Below are positions 14,231 to 38,380 of a stretch of 41,700 nucleotides of DNA, one piece after another. The position numbers and the translations under genes were made by a program. The notes beneath the pieces are model-generated. The model was not told the origin of the DNA and searched no databases. It saw only the letters and a list, made by a program, of their open reading frames with translations. The number at the start of each line of letters is the position of its first letter. Position 1 is the first letter of the stretch. The stretch is from an uncultured Clostridia bacterium (lineage in GTDB: Bacteria > Bacillota > Clostridia > Christensenellales > Aristaeellaceae): contig CANQKI010000008.1 in assembly GCA_947624355.1 (NCBI GenBank), forward strand, positions 1 through 41,700, read 5' to 3'.

Positions 14231-14236
14231 GCTTTT

Positions 14237-14996
14237 GGGGACTCCCCGTCCCCCAAGCCCCCCGGCCAGGGGGCTTCCTGGGGCGCTGCCCCAGACCCCG
14301 CCAGGGGGATGATCCCCCTGGACCCACGGCTGCGGAACGTTGTTGGCGATTGCTTCAAAGGTGTGTGCCGCTGGAGCTGGTTTGGGTGGCGTGATAAGAC
14401 GCCGGGGCAGCACGAAAGCCAGAAAACCCCTCGGGAAGTGAGCAAGCTCCCTCCCGAGGTTTTTTTCTGTCTTTCTCCGGAGGGCAAGCCCTCCGGGCGG
14501 CGGCCCATGGCCGCCCTGCCCCCGGCGAACGAACAGCGATAAAGAATCTTGTCGCGTGCGGAGTATCGTTGTGAAGCGTGACTTGTTTCCCGTTACGCTT
14601 GTAAATCGTTTCGCTGATTCCGATACAAGCGGCAATAAAGCAGCTTGCCGTGTACGAAACATGGGTAACATTTCAGTTACGGAATACAAGAGCCATGAAG
14701 AACACCCATGCAGGTCCAGGGCACGGCGGCGGTACGCCGCCAGCCCGGATACGCTTGCGTATCCGGGGAAAAGCCGGGAAAAACCGATCAGGAAGAGCTT
14801 GCTCTTCCCTGGAGGTTTTCCCGGCTTTTCATTGTGCCCCTGGGCCGTCATGCTGCCGCGTACTCAAACGCAACAGCGGCATACAGTTTGATTTACAAGT
14901 TCAACCCCGTTCCGCAAATGTGGGGTCCAGGGGGATCATCCCCCTGGCGGATGGGTCCGGGAGGCGCGGAGCCTCCCGGAGGCCCCGGCTTTTTTT
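14237..14996. repeat. Composite hairpin element, copy 1 (module order D-C-B)
   Basis: This gene-free 760 bases carries the window's intergenic repeat family. Its left end (GGGGACT...GTCCCCC, then CCAGGGG...CCCCTGG, then GGCTGCGGAACG and a GTGTGCCGCTG block) is repeated inverted at its right end (about 14873-14950). Internally it has module D (about 14400-14528, stem CCTCGGGAGGGAGC), C (about 14560-14690) and B (about 14700-14855, with CCGGATACGC/GCGTATCCGG and GGCGGC/GCCGCC hairpins). The modules run in reverse order and orientation to copies 2 and 4. The left end begins six bases after the stop of the flavin reductase gene. No transposase or credible ORF is present. Confidence 0.85.
14957..14996 (+). 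terminator. Terminator-like hairpin at the end of copy 1
   Basis: CCGGGAGGC (14957-14965) pairs with GCCTCCCGG (14971-14979). A run of seven T at 14990-14996 follows after ten bases, so termination may be weak. It insulates the alpha-galactosidase promoter from upstream reading. Confidence 0.45.
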
Positions 14997-17224: not shown

Positions 17225-18145
17225 ATGGAAAACGCACTGACGGCAACCGATCTAAGCAAGGTTTACGGGCGGAAACAGTTCCGCGCCCTGGACGGGTGCA
17301 GCGTGAATGTGCCTGTCGGGGTCATTTACGGCCTCATCGGCCCCAACGGCGCGGGCAAGACCACCCTGCTGCGGGTGGTCTGCGGCCTGCAGCGGCCAAG
17401 CGGCGGCGGGTACAGCCTGTGGGGCGTGCCCCACGACGGAAAAAACATCGGCCCCGTCCGGCGGCGGCTGGGCGCGGTGATCGAGGCCCCGGCCCTGGAC
17501 CCGCACATGACCGCCCGGGAAAACCTGCGCAGGCAGTACCGCATCCTGGGCCTGCCCGACGAGGGGGACATTCCCGACCTGCTGGCCTTTGCGGGCCTTG
17601 GGGACACGGGAAAGAAGAAGGCGCGGGATTTTTCCCTGGGTATGCGCCAGCGGCTGGGCATCGCCATGGCCCTGGCGGGCGGGCCGGATTTACTGCTGCT
17701 GGACGAACCCCTGAACGGCCTGGACCCCCAGGGCGTCATTGACGTGCGGGAAATGATCCTGCGGCTCCGGGCCGAGCGGCGCATGACCGTGCTCATTTCC
17801 AGCCATAACCTGGGTGAACTGGAAAAGATCGCCACCCATTACGGCTTTCTGGAAAAGGGCCGCACGGTGCGGGAAATCACCGCCGCCGAACTGGAAAAGA
17901 GCGGGGAAAGGCGGCTGCGCGTCACGGTCAGCGATGTGAATATCCTGGCCCGGGCGCTGTATGCCCGGGGAATCGATTACCGGGTGCTGTCCGGAAACGA
18001 GGCGGCGGTGTACGGCGCGGTCACGCCCGTGGAGCTTTCCGCCATCCTGGCGAAAGAGGGCTGCGAAATCCTTTCCCTCGAGGAAAGCGGCGAAACCCTG
18101 GAAAGCTATTACGTGAACCTGATGGGAGGCGAAAAGCATGCGTAA
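17225..18145 (+). CDS. ABC transporter ATP-binding protein (bacitracin/lantibiotic type)
   Basis: This 306-residue ATPase has Walker A GPNGAGKTT (39-47), signature FSLGMRQRLGIA, Walker B LLLLDEPLNGLDP and switch His in LISSHN, followed by a C-terminal extension (about 215-306) usual in BcrA-like drug and immunity exporters. It would power the membrane partner encoded by the next gene, which overlaps it by eight bases. AAGGAGG precedes the ATG. Regulation by the flanking two-component pair is inferred from the operator and gene order. Confidence 0.92.
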   Translation: MENALTATDLSKVYGRKQFRALDGCSVNVPVGVIYGLIGPNGAGKTTLLRVVCGLQRPSGGGYSLWGVPHDGKNIGPVRRRLGAVIEAPALDPHMTARENLRRQYRILGLPDEGDIPDLLAFAGLGDTGKKKARDFSLGMRQRLGIAMALAGGPDLLLLDEPLNGLDPQGVIDVREMILRLRAERRMTVLISSHNLGELEKIATHYGFLEKGRTVREITAAELEKSGERRLRVTVSDVNILARALYARGIDYRVLSGNEAAVYGAVTPVELSAILAKEGCEILSLEESGETLESYYVNLMGGEKHA

Positions 18146-18953
18146 CGTCTTTTTTGCCGACCTGATGACCTGCAAGAACCCCTGGTGGCTCTATTGCGGC
18201 GGCGCGGCCGGGCTGCTGGCGGCCCTCAATCAATATCAGGACAAACTCCGCTACGGCGACGTATGCCCCATGGACGAAACGCTGACCACCGTTTTTCCGT
18301 TCGCGGGCTTTCTCATCTGCCTCTTCTGCGGCCTGTTCGCGGGCAGTGAAGCGGAAAACGGCGGCCTGCGGCGGCAGGTGATTGCGGGCCACAGCCGGGC
18401 GAAAATTTACCTGGCGCACCTGCTTTTTACGCTGCTGGCGGGCGTATCCGCCGCGGCGGTCTATCTGCTCTTCAACATCGTTCCCGGCCTGCTCCTGCTG
18501 GACGCGCCCAAATCGTCCCTGGGGCCGACGGTGGTGCGGCTGTGCCTGGGCACGCTGACCCTGGCCGTCTTTGCCGCCCTGTTCCACATGATCGCCATGC
18601 TGGCCGGGAACCGGGCGCGGGCGCTGCTTTTGTGCATCCTGGTGTTCCTGGGCATGCTGATGCTGGCCGCCCTGATTGAGGGCCGCCTGGAAGCGCCCGA
18701 ATCCATTTCCGCGTATACGATGACGGTGGACGGCGTGCAGGAGGTCGCTTCCGAGCCCAATCCACGTTACCTCTCCCCCGCCGCCCGGCAGGCGTGCCAG
18801 TTCGTGATGATGCTGCTGCCCGCCGGCCAGGCCCTGCAATTGACCATGGGCGGGCTGCCCTGGCCCTGGCTGGCGGCCGGCTGCTCCCTGCTGGTGACGG
18901 CGGGGGCCACCCTGGCGGGAATCTTTCTCTTCCGGAAAAAAGACTTGAAGTGA
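18138..18953 (+). CDS. ABC-2 type transporter permease
   Basis: This 271-residue membrane protein has about six hydrophobic segments (near 20-30, 52-68, 94-117, 131-151, 160-175 and 242-263). The opening MRNVFFADLMTCKNP and the segment SEAENGGLRRQVIAGHSRAKIYLAHLL match the cytoplasmic coupling region of BcrB/NatB-like permeases. It forms the export channel with the upstream ATPase, whose gene it overlaps. A loop at about 185-225 (EAPESISAYTMTVDG) is probably extracellular. The substrate is unknown: peptide antibiotic efflux or self-immunity is most likely from context. Confidence 0.85.
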   Translation: MRNVFFADLMTCKNPWWLYCGGAAGLLAALNQYQDKLRYGDVCPMDETLTTVFPFAGFLICLFCGLFAGSEAENGGLRRQVIAGHSRAKIYLAHLLFTLLAGVSAAAVYLLFNIVPGLLLLDAPKSSLGPTVVRLCLGTLTLAVFAALFHMIAMLAGNRARALLLCILVFLGMLMLAALIEGRLEAPESISAYTMTVDGVQEVASEPNPRYLSPAARQACQFVMMLLPAGQALQLTMGGLPWPWLAAGCSLLVTAGATLAGIFLFRKKDLK

Positions 18954-18963
18954 GGCGAATGCC

Positions 18964-19848
18964 ATGAGCGGCTGGCTGGGCGCGGCCCTTTCTCTGATGA
19001 CGGTTCTGGCCCTTTCCCTGGCGGGCAAGCTGTTCGTTCTGCGGCGGGATATGGCGATGCTGGCCGACGCCCTGGGCGCGCGGCTGGAGACCGATACCAA
19101 CGCGCTCCTGACCCTGCCCTGCCGGGACCGGGCCCTGCGCCGCCTGGCCAGCCGGCTCAATGACGAGCTGCAGACGCTGATCCGCGCCCGGCATCGCTAT
19201 CAGCAGGGGGACGCGGAGCTGAAAGCCGCCATTGCCGGTATTTCCCACGACCTGCGGACGCCGCTCACCGCCATTCTGGGCTATCTGGACCTGACCGAAC
19301 GGGAAACCAAAAGCGAAAACGCGGCCCGCTATCTCGCCGTCGTGCGGGAGCGGGCCAACGCCATGGCACGCCTCACGGAGGACCTGTTTTCCTACACCCT
19401 GGCCGCCGCCGGGCAGGAGGGCGCGGCCCGGCAGGAAGTGAGCCTGAACGCCGCGCTGGAAGAAAGCCTGGCCGCCGCCTATACCGTTCTGACGGAAAAG
19501 GGCATTGCACCCCAGGTGCGCATGCCCGGTCGCCCCGTAACGCGCCGCCTGGACCCCGCCGCCCTGAACCGCGTTTTCAGTAATCTTCTAAGCAATGCCG
19601 CCCGCTACAGCGACGGCGATCTGGAAATCACGCTGACCGAAGCCGGGGAAATCACCTTCTCCAATGCCGCGCCCCATCTGACCCCCGTCCAGGCCGCCCG
19701 GCTCTTTGACCGCTTCTATACCGTATCCGCCGCCCCAAGCGCCGCGGGTCTGGGCCTTTCCATCGCCAGGCTGCTGACTGAGCGCATGGGCGGCGACATC
19801 GGCGCGGAATACCGGGATGGACGCCTCACCGTGCGGCTGCGTTTCTGA
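18964..19848 (+). CDS. Sensor histidine kinase
   Basis: This 294-residue kinase has one N-terminal membrane segment (about 5-26) and almost no extracellular part, as in intramembrane-sensing kinases that respond through an ABC partner. The dimerisation box is ISHDLRTPLTAILGYLDL, with phospho-acceptor His95. The N box is FSNLLSNAARYSDGD. The F and G2 boxes are RLFDRFYTV and AGLGLSIARLLTERMGG. The typical G1 DxGxG is degenerate (TLTEAGEITFSNAAP), as often seen in this subfamily. GTGAGG lies before the ATG. It pairs with the regulator at 16481, from which it is separated by the transporter genes. Confidence 0.9.
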   Translation: MSGWLGAALSLMTVLALSLAGKLFVLRRDMAMLADALGARLETDTNALLTLPCRDRALRRLASRLNDELQTLIRARHRYQQGDAELKAAIAGISHDLRTPLTAILGYLDLTERETKSENAARYLAVVRERANAMARLTEDLFSYTLAAAGQEGAARQEVSLNAALEESLAAAYTVLTEKGIAPQVRMPGRPVTRRLDPAALNRVFSNLLSNAARYSDGDLEITLTEAGEITFSNAAPHLTPVQAARLFDRFYTVSAAPSAAGLGLSIARLLTERMGGDIGAEYRDGRLTVRLRF

Positions 19849-19853
19849 TGCGG

Positions 19854-20736
19854 GGCCCTTCTTGGGGGACTCCCCGTCCCCCAAACCCCCGGCCAGGGGG
19901 ATGATCCCCCTGGACCCGCGGCTGCGGAACGGGGTGGGCGTGAAATACGAGCAATGTGCCGCTGTTGCGTTTGGGTACGCGATAGTGTGACGGTCCAGGG
20001 CACCAAAAAAAGCCGGGAAAACCGCCGGGGAAAAGCAAGCTTTTCCCGATCGGTTGTTCCCGGCTTTTTCCCGGATACGCAAGCGTATCCGGGCTGGCGG
20101 CGTACCGCCGCCGTGCCCTGGGCCTGCGCGGGTGTTCTTCATTGCGTTCGTGTTGTGCTGCTGAATCGCCATCCATGTTCCGCACGCGGCAAGCTGCTTT
20201 GTATCCGTTATCCGAAGCGCTTTGTACGCAAAGCAAAAGCATGCAGTGCTTTCTTTCAATGCTTTACTCCCGTTTTTATCAGGATAAACGAAACGTCTTG
20301 CGGGTACAGCGGAAAACAAGTTATGTTTCGCAACAACGTTTTGCACGCAGCAAGCAGTTTTCTGACCTCCGGCAGCAGGTTCAACGAAACACTTTACGAA
20401 CGCAACGGGAAACACGTTCCACTTCTCAACGACACTTGCACGCGACAAAATGCTTTGTCGCCACCCCCCCGCCGGGGCAGGGCGGCCATGGGCCGCCGCC
20501 CGGAGGGCTTGCCCTCCGGAGAAAGACAAAATGCCCGATCCGTAGGGCGTGCTTGCACGCTTCTCGGTCGGGCTTTTGGCTTTCGTGCTGCCCCGGCGTC
20601 TCCTAACGACACCCACAACAGCTCCAGCGGCACACAAGTTTGATATAAGCGCCAGCTCCGTTCCGCAGCCGCGGGTCCAGGGGGATCATCCCCCTGGCCG
20701 GGGGCTTGGGGGACGGGCAGTCCCCCAAGAAGGGCC
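19854..20736. repeat. Composite hairpin element, copy 2, with 78-bp terminal inverted repeats
   Basis: Bases 19854-19931 and the complement of 20736-20659 agree at 76 of 78 positions, counted by eye, and are closed by GGCCCTTCTTGGGGGACT at each tip. Inside are module B (about 19992-20140, nested stem GCCGGGAAAACC/GGTTGTTCCCGGC, then the CCGGATACGC and GGCGGC hairpins), module C (about 20174-20462, containing a 96-base-period repeat) and module D (about 20473-20605, stems GCCCGA/TCGGGC and GGAGGGC/GCCCTCC). It starts five bases after the histidine kinase stop. It contains no transposase or credible protein gene. The size and ends recall a MITE-like non-autonomous element. Confidence 0.9.
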
Positions 20737-20755
20737 GGGGGCTGAAGAAGCCCCC
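20737..20755. repeat. Extra GGGGGCT hairpin beside copy 2
   Basis: GGGGGCT (20737-20743) pairs with AGCCCCC (20749-20755), the same kind of tip hairpin found at the ends of copies 3 and 4, here abutting the right end of copy 2. It may be the remnant of another element end. Confidence 0.5.
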
Positions 20756-20764
20756 GGGGGCCCC

Positions 20765-24966: not shown

Positions 24967-24988
24967 GCTGTTTTCCTCCTGTCTTTTT

Positions 24989-25006
24989 GGGGGCCTCTTC
25001 GGCCCC
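24989..25006. repeat. Solo GGGGCC hairpin in the purA leader
   Basis: GGGGCC (24990-24995) pairs with GGCCCC (25001-25006) around TCTTC, identical to the tip hairpin of repeat copy 4. It lies between copy 3 and the purA ribosome-binding site and could be a transcribed leader structure. Confidence 0.55.
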
Positions 25007-25037
25007 TTGGGTGCTGTCGTGTATTGCTGCGTTTCTC

Positions 25038-25460
25038 GGGGGCTTTTTCAGCCCCCGAACCCCTGAACAAGGGGCAGTGCCCCTTGACCCATTTTGCGGA
25101 ATATCGTCGGCGTAAAGCCCAAACAATGCGCCGCTGGAGCGTTTTGGGCGAACGGGCGGGGCTTGGAAAACAAACGCTGTTTGCCTGCTTTTTTGAAAAC
25201 GATTCTTTGCGGTTCCGGGGCACCAGGAAAGCCAGGGAAAACCTGTGGGGAAAAGCTTGCTTTTCCCCCCGGTTATTCCCAGGCTTTCCCCGGATGCGCC
25301 CGCGCATCCGGTCCGGCGGCTTTGCCGCCGTGCCCCGGAACGTTCACGACGTTCCCACAGCAACAGCGGCATATTGCCTGAAGTAACCGTCCACGTTGTC
25401 CCGCAAATGCGGGTCCAGGGGGATCATCCCCCTGGCGCGGGGGGCTGCGTAAGCCCCCCA
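25038..25460. repeat. Composite hairpin element, copy 3 (short form, module B only)
   Basis: The ends are GGGGGCT/AGCCCCC (25038-25056) and a GGGGCT/AGCCCC hairpin at about 25440-25456. Each is followed inward by a CCAGGGG- or CAAGGGG-type palindrome, a TTTGCGG block and a GCCGCTG block. Only module B lies between (about 25213-25345): nested GGGAAAACC stem, CCGGATGCGC/GCGCATCCGG, GGCGGC/GCCGCC. One end lies about ten bases from the dapL stop. Sequence differs from the other copies mostly in paired positions with the partner also changed. Confidence 0.85.
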
Positions 25461-29294: not shown

Positions 29295-30260
29295 ATGCCC
29301 TACATTCATGTGGAACAACTGAACAAAACATTTGTCCTGCGAAAACGCCGGGAAAAGGGCCGCCTTTTCCGGGAAAAGACCCTCGTCCACGCCCTGAACG
29401 ACGTATCCTTCGATATCGGCCGGGGGGAACTGGTGGGTTACATCGGCCCCAACGGCGCGGGGAAATCCACCACCGTGAAAATCCTTTCCGGCATCCTGAC
29501 CCCGGAATCGGGGGACGTGACGGTGGGGGGCATGGTGCCCTGGAAGGAGCGGAAGAACCATGTGCGCCGCATCGGCGTGGTGTTCGGCCAGCGGATGCAG
29601 CTTTGGTGGGACGTGCCCATTCTGGATTCCTTCAACCTCCTCCGGGACATTTACCGCATTCCCGAACAGGATTATCAGAAGCGGCTGCGTGAACTGACGG
29701 ACGCCCTGGAATTGGGGGACCTGCTGCGCACGCCCCTTCGGCTCATGAGCCTGGGGCAAAGGATGCGGAGCGAGCTGTGCGGGTCGCTTTTGCACCGGCC
29801 CGAAATCCTGTTTCTGGACGAGCCCACCATCGGCCTGGACGCGGTAAGCAAGCTGGCACTGCGGGATTTCCTGCGCCAGGAAAACAGGCAGAACGGCACC
29901 ACCATCCTCCTGACCACCCACGACATGGAGGATATCGCCGCCCTGTGCCCCCGGGTCATGGTGCTGGGCCACGGAAAAAAGCTCTATGACGGGGCCCTGC
30001 CCGAGCTCCTTTCCCGGTACGACACCCTCCGGGTGATGACGGTGCGCTACGGCATGGATACGCCGCTTCCTGAACTGCCTGAATGCTGCCGCGCCGAACG
30101 GGACGGGGACGGCTACAAAATCACCTACGCCCCCGCCGAAATCCCCACGGCCCAGCTGCTACACATTCTCCAGGCCGCCGGGGATATCCGGGAGCTGACG
30201 GCCCAGCCCCAGAACGTGGATCACCTTATCGCCGCCATGTACAGGGAGCTGGATTTATGA
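29295..30260 (+). CDS. ABC-2 exporter ATP-binding protein
   Basis: This 321-residue ATPase has Walker A GPNGAGKST, a Q loop (VVFGQRMQLWWDVPILDSF), signature MSLGQRMRSELCGSLLHRP, Walker B ILFLDEPTIGLD and switch His in LLTTHDMEDI. The QLWWD pattern after the Q loop and the insertion RKRREKGRLFREKTLVHALND near the start match the group that works with two DUF990-like permeases, as here. GCGGGAGG precedes the ATG. The stop overlaps the first permease start (ATGA). The substrate cannot be read from the sequence. Confidence 0.92.
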   Translation: MPYIHVEQLNKTFVLRKRREKGRLFREKTLVHALNDVSFDIGRGELVGYIGPNGAGKSTTVKILSGILTPESGDVTVGGMVPWKERKNHVRRIGVVFGQRMQLWWDVPILDSFNLLRDIYRIPEQDYQKRLRELTDALELGDLLRTPLRLMSLGQRMRSELCGSLLHRPEILFLDEPTIGLDAVSKLALRDFLRQENRQNGTTILLTTHDMEDIAALCPRVMVLGHGKKLYDGALPELLSRYDTLRVMTVRYGMDTPLPELPECCRAERDGDGYKITYAPAEIPTAQLLHILQAAGDIRELTAQPQNVDHLIAAMYRELDL

Positions 30261-31051
30261 TCAAAAGTTATTTCAGCGCCTTCCGCATGCGGTGGAAAAT
30301 GGAAACCCAGTACCGGGGCGCGGCCCTGGGGGGCATCCTGTGCCAAATTTTTTTCGGCCTGATCCTGGTAGCCCTCTACCGGGCCCTGTACGCGGGCAGG
30401 CCGCAAACGCTGCCCCTGAGTGCCGTGGTTTCCTATGTGTGGATTCAGCAGTGCTGCTTCCGCATTGTCACGTCCGCCGAAAGCGGCATTTTGGACAGCG
30501 TCATGACCGGGCAGATCGCGTATGAGCTGTGCCGCCCCCTGAATTTGTACGGCTATTATTTCGTGCGGGACATGGCCTACAAAATCGTGGGCTGCGGCAT
30601 GCGGGCCTTCCCCATGCTGGTTTTCGCCATTCTGCTGCCCGAGGGCTGGGGCATTTCGGCCCCGGCTTCCCTGCCGGGGTTTGTGCTCATGCTGCTGGCC
30701 CTGTTCCTGGGCCTCCTTTGCGCCTGCGCCCTGGACAATATCTGCATGGCCGCCACCATGAAAACCCTGGACAACCGGGGCGTTGCGTCCATGCTGAACC
30801 TGCTGGCCCTGTCCCTTTCGGGGAACATCCTGCCCCTGACGCTGTTCCCGGACAGCTGGCAAAAGGTCATCACCCTGCTTCCCTACGCCCAGATGCTGGA
30901 TGCCCCCATCCGCCTCTACACCGGGGAATGGGCGGTGGCGGCGGCGCCAAGGGTGCTGCTGGTCCAGGGGGTGTGGGCCGTGCTGCTCATCGCCTTCGGC
31001 GCGTTTCTGTGGCGGCAGAACCTACGGCGCGTGATCGTACAGGGGGGCTGA
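30257..31051 (+). CDS. ABC-2 type permease, first subunit
   Basis: This 264-residue membrane protein with about six hydrophobic segments starts MIKSYFSAFRMRWKMETQYRG, with ATG overlapping the ATPase stop. ESGILDSVMTGQIAYELCRPLNLYGYYFVRDMAYK is the hallmark of ABC-2 (DUF990) permeases, where the cytoplasmic GxIAYELxRP segment contacts the ATPase. The C-terminal WAVLLIAFGAFLWRQNLRRVIVQGG is the last helix. It works as a heterodimer with the next gene product. Confidence 0.88.
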   Translation: MIKSYFSAFRMRWKMETQYRGAALGGILCQIFFGLILVALYRALYAGRPQTLPLSAVVSYVWIQQCCFRIVTSAESGILDSVMTGQIAYELCRPLNLYGYYFVRDMAYKIVGCGMRAFPMLVFAILLPEGWGISAPASLPGFVLMLLALFLGLLCACALDNICMAATMKTLDNRGVASMLNLLALSLSGNILPLTLFPDSWQKVITLLPYAQMLDAPIRLYTGEWAVAAAPRVLLVQGVWAVLLIAFGAFLWRQNLRRVIVQGG

Positions 31052-31056
31052 AGAAA

Positions 31057-31854
31057 ATGGACACCATCCGGCTGTATTTCCGCTCCATGAAGATGCTGCT
31101 CAGAAGCCATTTGCAGTATCCCGCTTCCTTCATTCTGCAGCTTTGCTCCCAGGCCGTCATGCTGGGGGGCGAACTGCTGGCCGTGCTGCTGATTATCGAC
31201 AGGTTCGATTCCCTGAACCAGTGGTCGGGGGGCGATCTGCTCTTTTTCTTCGGGGTCATGAGCGTCACCTTTTACATCATGGAATGCTTCGCCCGGGGGG
31301 TCACTTCCTTCGGGCCCCTGGTGCAAAAGGGCACCCTGGATATCTTTCTTCTGCGGCCCCGGGGCGTGCTGACCCAGGTGATCTGTTACCAATTGGACCC
31401 CCGCCGCCTGACGGCCATTCTGGTGGGCGTGGCCGCCATGGTCATGGGCGGCAGACAGTCCAATGTCACCTGGACGGCCCTCAAAGCGCTGGCATTGGCG
31501 GAGGCCATCGTCTTCGGCGGGCTGGTGGTGCTGGGGCTCTTCTTTATCGAAGCCATGTTTTCCGTCCGCTCGGTCAAGTCCATCGAGGTGGTGAACGCCC
31601 TCACCTACGGGGGCCGGAGCGCCTGCCAGTACCCCATCGACATTTACCCCGAGCCCCTGAAAATCCTCTTTACCGCCGTGGCCCCCTTCGCCCTCACCAT
31701 CCACCTGCCCGTTTCCTATATTCTGGGCAAGAACCTGTTCGGCTGGCCGGATGCTGCGGCTTTCCTCTGCCCTCTGGCCGGCGGGGCGTTTTTCCTGATT
31801 ATGTATGTGCTGCTTCAGTTCGCCTTGCGGTATTACCGCTCCACGGGGAGTTGA
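31057..31854 (+). CDS. ABC-2 type permease, second subunit
   Basis: This 265-residue partner of the preceding permease starts five bases after its stop (MDTIRLYFRSMKMLLRSHLQYPASF). FGPLVQKGTLDIFLLRPRGVLTQV parallels the coupling segment of the first subunit. About six membrane segments are predicted. YGGRSACQYPIDIYPEPLKILFTAVAPFALTIHLP is a motif I recall from DUF990-type permeases. It completes the exporter. recO follows with four bases between. Confidence 0.88.
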   Translation: MDTIRLYFRSMKMLLRSHLQYPASFILQLCSQAVMLGGELLAVLLIIDRFDSLNQWSGGDLLFFFGVMSVTFYIMECFARGVTSFGPLVQKGTLDIFLLRPRGVLTQVICYQLDPRRLTAILVGVAAMVMGGRQSNVTWTALKALALAEAIVFGGLVVLGLFFIEAMFSVRSVKSIEVVNALTYGGRSACQYPIDIYPEPLKILFTAVAPFALTIHLPVSYILGKNLFGWPDAAAFLCPLAGGAFFLIMYVLLQFALRYYRSTGS

Positions 31855-37670: not shown

Positions 37671-37678
37671 GGACCTTT

Positions 37679-38380
37679 GGGGGCCTCTTCGGCCCCCAAA
37701 CCCCTGAACCAGGGGATTGAATCCCCTGGACCCGCATTTGCGGAACGGGGTTAGCAATTGCTTCCAAGTTGTGTGCCGCTGTTACATTTTGCACGCGATA
37801 GCAAAACGGTCCCAGGGCAACCAGAAAAGCCGGGAAAACCGCCGGGGAAAAGCAAGCTTTTCCCGATCGGTTGTTCCCGGCTTTTCCCCGGATACGCAAG
37901 CGTATCCGGGCTGGCGGCGTTCCGCCGCCGTGCCCTGGGCCTGCGCGGGTGGTTCTTCGTTTCGTTCGTATTGTGCGGCTTAATCGCCACCATGTTTTGC
38001 ATGCGGCGAGCCGCTTGACAAGCGTCGTGTGTCGGAATAACGAAACGCCTTGCAAGCGCAGCGGGCGGCAAGTCCCGCTTTGCAACAACGTTTTGCGCAC
38101 AGCGAGATACTTTTTCGTTATCCGTTCGCCGGGGCAAGGCGGCCTTTGGCCGCCGCCCGGAGGGCTTGCCCTCCGGAGAAAGACAAAATGCCCGATCCGC
38201 AGGGCGTGCTTGCACGCATCTCGGTCGGGCTTTTGGATTTCGTGCTGCCCCGGCGTCTCCTTGTGATGCCCTCAAGCAGCAGCGGCACACTGTTTGATTT
38301 ACACGTCCACTCTGTTCCGCAGCCGCGGGTCCAGGGGATTCAATCCCCTGGTTCAGGGGTCCGGGGCCGAAGAGGCCCCC
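37679..38380. repeat. Composite hairpin element, copy 4 (module order B-C-D)
   Basis: Inverted ends of about 75 bases: GGGGGCC-TCTTC-GGCCCCC (37679-37697) and its complement at 38363-38380, each followed inward by ACCCCTGAACCAGGGGATTG, then CCCCTGGACCCGC and GCGGAAC. Module B (about 37805-37950) shares some 58 consecutive identical bases with copy 2 (from 37828 and 20011). Module C (about 37990-38120) has a partial and a full unit of the 96-base repeat, and D spans about 38126-38262. It starts eight bases after the stop of the permease gene. It has no transposase or credible ORF. Confidence 0.9.

Follow-up and report, generated by a model that had tools for sequence, protein, structure and literature searches.

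BOX elements of Streptococcus pneumoniae, as far as the published account used here extends, are modular and tightly folded sequences of 67-637 bp with paired ends that occur in more than 100 copies, are over-represented between convergent genes and are thought to be mobile in trans; target duplications are known for them, and an IS has been proposed as their partner (PMC3049150). REPs are described as 20-40 bp long and tagged with GTAG or CGTC (PMC3733652). Typical MITEs are shorter than 500 bp and AT-rich, and direct repeats are found at young copies, according to the portion of the literature consulted (PMC10969869).

The element described here lies at positions 19854-20736 of the window, i.e. 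the whole stretch of 41,700 nucleotides that was analyzed, from an uncultured Clostridia bacterium of the Aristaeellaceae. It is gene-less and multi-copy and has a fixed plan, in which inward-reading end modules enclose one or two folded cores. No published description of this family was found in the open-access literature. The element appears to work like a MITE, and its plan most resembles that of BOX and its placement that of REP dimers. Like BOX, when compared by description, it is similar in plan: it is modular, variable in size, folded, present in many copies and biased toward convergent genes. Unlike the BOX elements of the cited account, it has modules of its own, is G+C-rich, reaches ~890 bp, has a three-hairpin core and is genus-wide, and neither a target duplication nor an IS partner was found for it. 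With REPs and BIME dimers, as the source presents them, it shares palindromes that carry a fixed, unpaired tag, an arrangement in inverted pairs and a position 3' of genes, between unidirectional or convergent genes (PMC3733652). It differs from REPs as described there in its length (~440-890 bp), in the ACCC that follows each end hairpin and in the absence of Y1 transposases from most genomes of the genus; the tag in the aligned end modules is ACCC/GGGT, not GTAG or CGTC. Prokaryotic MITEs, so far as the cited account covers them, are likewise gene-less, multi-copy and intergenic, with stable stem-loops, and have terminal inverted repeats that this element shows on some copies (PMC10969869); the copy at 19854-20736 departs from them in its greater length, its high G+C content and the lack of a constant direct repeat. 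The copies of sister species (~443 bp) lie within the MITE length limit of ~500 bp and the two-core copies of the own genome (~650-890 bp) exceed it, while the G+C content of the core is 0.50-0.71 among the matches listed. The element is therefore called MITE-like and is not assigned to any named family. The small repeats known from bacteria would thereby gain a family of mobile palindromes that is genus-wide, large, modular and G+C-rich.

Architecture, copy number and range

When the outer 78 bases of the block are inverted and compared directly, they agree at 76 positions, just as the original prediction had it; in the control, 200 shuffles in two-base blocks, agreement averaged 20 of 78 positions and never exceeded 31. 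The 87-base arms (19854-19940 and 20650-20736) are identical at 82 of 87 positions, and further inward the two halves align as inverted arms of ~270 bp with 73.9% identity. The claim that the block contains no gene also held. Its longest frame (19954-20643, 229 aa) matches nothing in Pfam and is interrupted by a stop or covered over less than 80% of its length in 28 of the 31 full own-genome copies, and on these grounds a protein-coding gene was rejected. Likewise, with no conserved frame and no Pfam match, the internal transposase gene of an insertion sequence was not found. The same end architecture had been predicted for three more intergenic regions, and it is present in each of them (Table 1).

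Each end module consists of two inward-reading hairpins, both followed by ACCC; the pairing in the end-module alignment is circular because its members were chosen for the presence of hairpins. Inside lie one or two cores of ~135 nt, in which a closing stem surrounds three hairpins, one long and bulged and the other two shorter. The cores of two-core copies are oppositely oriented, and sister species have one core at nearly all element loci. A lone hairpin at 24985-25010 (GGGGGCCTCTTCGGCCCC), ~40 bases before the one-core copy of the window, resembles the outer end hairpins. The genes immediately upstream of the element at 19854-20736 (17225-19848) encode a transporter of the ABC-2 type together with a small histidine kinase; the kinase (18964-19845) has relatives in records of Enterococcus, Lachnoclostridium and Mediterraneibacter.

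Table 1. Element copies in the window and the parts of the copy at 19854-20736
Feature	Position	Strand	Details
Whole two-core element	19854..20736	+	ends 76/78; among 31 full copies >600 bp in own genome
Left outer hairpin H1, then ACCC	19862..19884	+	
Left inner hairpin H2, then ACCC	19893..19913	+	CCAGGGGG...CCCCCTGG
Core domain 1	19990..20128	+	core model 125.9 bits, E 5.6e-31
Core 1 closing stem	19992-20003/20113-20124		encloses hairpins 20012-20064, 20073-20090, 20096-20112
Variable middle	20129..20464	.	~360 or ~190 bp between halves, depending on copy
Core domain 2, inverted	20465..20601	-	core model 101.4 bits, E 1.6e-24
Core 2 closing stem	20470-20480/20588-20598		hairpins 20481-20497, 20500-20519
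Right inner hairpin H2	20677..20697	-	then ACCC on minus strand
Right outer hairpin H1	20706..20728	-	
Extra hairpin directly outside right end	20735..20757	-	no left counterpart
Second two-core copy	14234..14977	-	cores 14397-14531 (+), 14709-14847 (-)
One-core copy	25036..25459	+	core 25210-25345 (+); short form usual in sister species
Third two-core copy	37677..38380	+	cores 37807-37945 (+), 38122-38258 (-)

Whole-genome and related-genome searches returned many copies. In the own genome, BLAST with the element gave at least 152 matching pieces and the core model matched at least 114 places; 31 full copies longer than 600 bp were aligned, three of them from the window. The window itself is element-rich, with four copies in 41.7 kb, whereas nine 20-kb stretches from elsewhere in the genome have one copy between them.

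The element is restricted almost wholly to one genus. All 29 genus genomes examined match the core model (G043 and G017 with one weak match each), and five of them (G000, G003, G010, G011 and G019) match at 109 to 114 of the 114 places scored, the upper limit per genome, so that these counts are lower bounds. BLAST with the window copy was run on 25 genus genomes, the own one included, and on 16 others in the order: 23 of these 41 genomes were matched, all within the genus, with G015 and G017 unmatched in the genus and none of the 16 others matched. Searched with the core model, 297 order genomes gave matches in the own genome, G001, G209 (E 2e-21) and G228 (E 4e-4), and 391 class genomes gave the own genome and two weak matches (G575 and G500). 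Outside the genus, these two samples, to which stricter filters were applied and in which few places were scored, contain one strong match, at a contig edge, four weak ones and no others. The strong match (L186, 5-139) is in G209, from another family of the order, and adjoins an FtsX-domain gene; transfer and misbinning are both possible.

Insertion sites and termini

The element sits at sites where sister species lack it, as compared between species with one genome per species. In 24 of 26 species, genes one and two of the ABC-transporter operon (29295-31854 in the window) abut, with a spacing of -4 to 8 bp; in G019 a 497-bp gap with a core separates them. Genes two and three are at most 18 bp apart in 19 of the 24 species measured; G006 has 436 bp with a core there, four other species have coreless inserts, and G041, which is outside the 24 measured, has the same insert start as G006 and then runs off its contig. 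At the junction occupied by the element in G019, G005 (L301) has an unrelated 351-bp insert without a core. Two species carry a different insert of ~400 bp at one and the same junction of the operon (L292, 2290-2666; L294, 2290-2712). This insert has a short frame for a hydrophobic peptide, which we take to recall type I toxin peptides.

For 17 sites of G003, 31 orthologous loci were collected in G041 and G006. The core is absent from 27 of them and present at the same site in four (L313, L314, L332 and L338); L319 holds a partial copy below the threshold. Twenty loci, three of them filled, aligned on both flanks. Five of the empty loci, from four of the sites, close to within 12 bp. Seven loci carry 136-189 bp instead, six of which hold another small palindromic element, with the seventh seen in part. 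Comparison of filled and empty sites gave no target duplication of constant length, the overlaps at the tight empty sites being 2, 3, 3 and 4 bp.

Copies in the own genome begin a few bases from stop codons. Convergent genes surround 26 of the 37 copies for which both flanks were called, compared with 15 of 151 neighbor pairs drawn from nine 20-kb stretches (p 3e-13), as called with a home-made gene caller and with one flank more than 1 kb off in two pieces. Among 54 copies of relatives with both flanks called, 40 lie between tandem, 10 between convergent and 4 between divergent genes, and the strand of the core shows no preference relative to the genes (<< 23, >> 17, >< 10, <> 4).

Termini were found on some copies. 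Of 61 relative copies, 18 have the motif RRRCRCTTTAAG beside one or both sides (both in 5) and the other 43 on neither; one of 61 control windows has it. Two further terminal types occur at 7 of 61 copies each, with 0 and 1 in the controls. None of the three terminal types was seen at the window copies. In G003, RRRCRCTTTAAG has 61 matches, compared with 4 when the motif is reversed as a control. No more than 400 bp separates 47 of the 61 from a contig end, so young, near-identical copies appear to break the G003 assembly. Thirteen contig-edge ends in this genome are near-identical, and GAACACTTTAAGT is common to all of them just outside. The end modules of G003 are evenly spaced, with 37 of 46 inverted pairs at 378-401 bp, and core domains within one genome reach identities of up to 0.985-0.993. 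The element breaks short-read assemblies.

One IMG/VR contig (L208) has a full copy at 1804-2257, with both terminal motifs, among phage head genes. The cluster encodes a phrog_1357 major head protein (E 2e-61) as well as an internal virion protein of phrog_511, and its Pfam capsid matches are below the cut-off. The phage copy is a possible route between species. Sequence patterns of the own-genome form matched no viral contig, and two contigs found by a 19-base pattern (L381 and L382) have no core.

We judge it probable, at roughly 0.8, that the element is non-autonomous, MITE-like mobile DNA built of palindromic modules. The original prediction of a non-autonomous mobile element is supported by copy number, by filled and empty orthologous sites, by recent near-identical copies, by termini on some copies and by the phage copy. 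Counting against this reading are the 43 of 61 copies without the terminal motif, the lack of a constant target duplication, the length and G+C-richness of the own copies, which are atypical for MITEs, and the transposase: an autonomous relative with the same ends beside a transposase was not found around the interior terminal matches of G003, the single relative examined. The transposase would be supplied in trans and act on the termini, copying or moving the element. Two convergent modules may have given the two-core version of the own species, which would survive chiefly where it is least harmful, between convergent genes. Insertion would be tolerated behind stop codons, and transcription arriving from either side may be stopped by the strong hairpins.

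Fold, compensatory change and strand

The fold of the core is conserved by compensatory change while its sequence varies. The 883-nt copy folds better than its shuffles with a z of -20.9 (20 shuffles), and the 423-nt copy with a z of -9.0 (100 shuffles). A sequence-based alignment of 40 cores shows double changes in 32 of the 41 pairs predicted; in the closing stem, for example, the own genome has CCAGGGCAC/GTGCCCTGG and relatives have GCTTCTGGCCC/GGGCCAGAAGC. In 96 cores aligned to the model, an alignment that, unlike the former, leans toward the core model, 97.3% of 3882 cells are paired, 36 of 41 pairs are altered on both sides, and double-changed cells number 404 against 82 after shuffling, with none of 500 shuffles reaching 404.

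Compensatory changes are usually taken as proof of a functional RNA. A host-serving structured RNA, or a family of bidirectional terminators at the 3' ends of genes, duplicated and then kept by selection on the RNA, would account for the very stable fold, for the strong covariation in the core and for the start of own-genome copies near stop codons with their preference for convergent genes. It would also fit the excess of G-U over A-C in three core helices (70 vs 16), where the helix register is less certain. In the five other core helices, however, the two are near equal (G-U 21, A-C 14), as they are in the helices predicted from both strands (G-U 124, A-C 131). Over all plus-strand predicted pairs of whole elements the count is 553 to 256, which is biased because the folding program permits G-U and not A-C. 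The consensus fold energies of the two strands are near equal (-579.2 and -578.8), sister species have no core-strand preference at the 54 loci, and the element is inserted into operon junctions and present in ~100 copies at species-specific sites, all of which argues against selection on an RNA and makes this explanation unlikely. The earlier suggestion of a family of large structured RNAs thus stands for the structure, given the covariation, and not for the RNA, since the transcript-strand signal is not clear. A known RNA family was rejected, there being no Rfam match in the window at the gathering score.

The strand evidence leans toward DNA without settling the question, and the palindromes of the MITE-like element may act, or stay matched, at the DNA level and not as a one-strand RNA. 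The arms could be kept matched, e.g. by template switching between them. Reverse-complemented loops on the same arms are a known mark of template switching in the part of the literature consulted (PMC8604942), and such loops are frequent on identical arms here. Among pairs with fully changed loops, hairpin 2 has exact reverse complements in 73 of 126 close pairs and 320 of 1028 distant ones, the apical loop in 22 of 50 and 571 of 1094, and hairpin 3 in no close pair and 32 of 68 distant ones; the pairs are not independent and the outcome is mixed across hairpins. As in the palindromes homogenized by template switching, within the accounts drawn on, the arms are perfect, double changes lack intermediates and loops occur in both orientations (PMC8604942, PMC8794818). 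Those described cases are single loci in yeast and in RNA genes, whereas here a whole mobile family is concerned and the loop evidence is mixed. Counting against action at the DNA level are the G-U excess in three of the eight core helices, the overall 553 to 256 and the negative outcome of a test of whether the two tips of a copy are especially alike, which used 21 of 31 copies (inner and outer hairpins mixed; the remaining 10 did not match the pattern and were left out).

A more far-reaching version of this account, which we regard as doubtful although worth stating, is that the mobile element is conserved in its folded DNA core and not in its termini or genes. The stems would be kept perfect by template switching during replication, giving covariation without RNA function. 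On this version, the core travels with at least three terminal types (RRRCRCTTTAAG, AAATTGGGATTT and CTCACGCATGAAT), the RRRCRCTTTAAG type is common to unrelated small palindromic elements, and one palindromic element is exchanged for another at sites between species. If the DNA-level reading is true, the family would allow one to test in nature whether mobile DNA without a functional RNA product can accumulate compensatory changes.

Other modes of movement and small palindromes

The fixed ACCC after the hairpins (GGGT before them on the other strand) recalls the tags of REPs and could point to a REP-like element that travels as single-stranded DNA through the action of a Y1 transposase (RAYT or IS200-type) reading a hairpin and a tetranucleotide. 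Y1_Tnp, however, is present in 10 of 29 genus genomes and absent from the other 19 and from the own genome, and four of the six genomes with more than 100 core matches are without it. Identity with REP/RAYT was rejected because the domain is missing from the own and most genus genomes, and movement of this kind is very improbable.

That the element is an invertible segment, turned around in place when its long inverted ends recombine, is scarcely credible: four of five same-site core copies are inverted (L259, L313, L314 and L338, but not L332; the set adds L225/L259 to the G003 orthologue loci), yet the four rank 26, 13, 30 and 5 of 34 in relatedness, so that separate insertions or recurrent use of a site fit better, and in-place inversion was rejected because same-site copies are mostly not closest relatives, the exception being the partial copy L319, which ranks 1 and is not inverted.

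The RRRCRCTTTAAG terminal type also ends small palindromes with GAGAGTTG or AGGTAGG. These purine-rich palindromes of ~140 bp, with AGGTAGG or GAGAGTTG arms, share their terminal motif with the element's young copies and were seen at L312 (2291-2438), L327 (2268-2408), L333 (2786-2923) and L353 (2660-2805) as well as in L361, L363, L367 and L368. They occupy the same gene junctions in other species.
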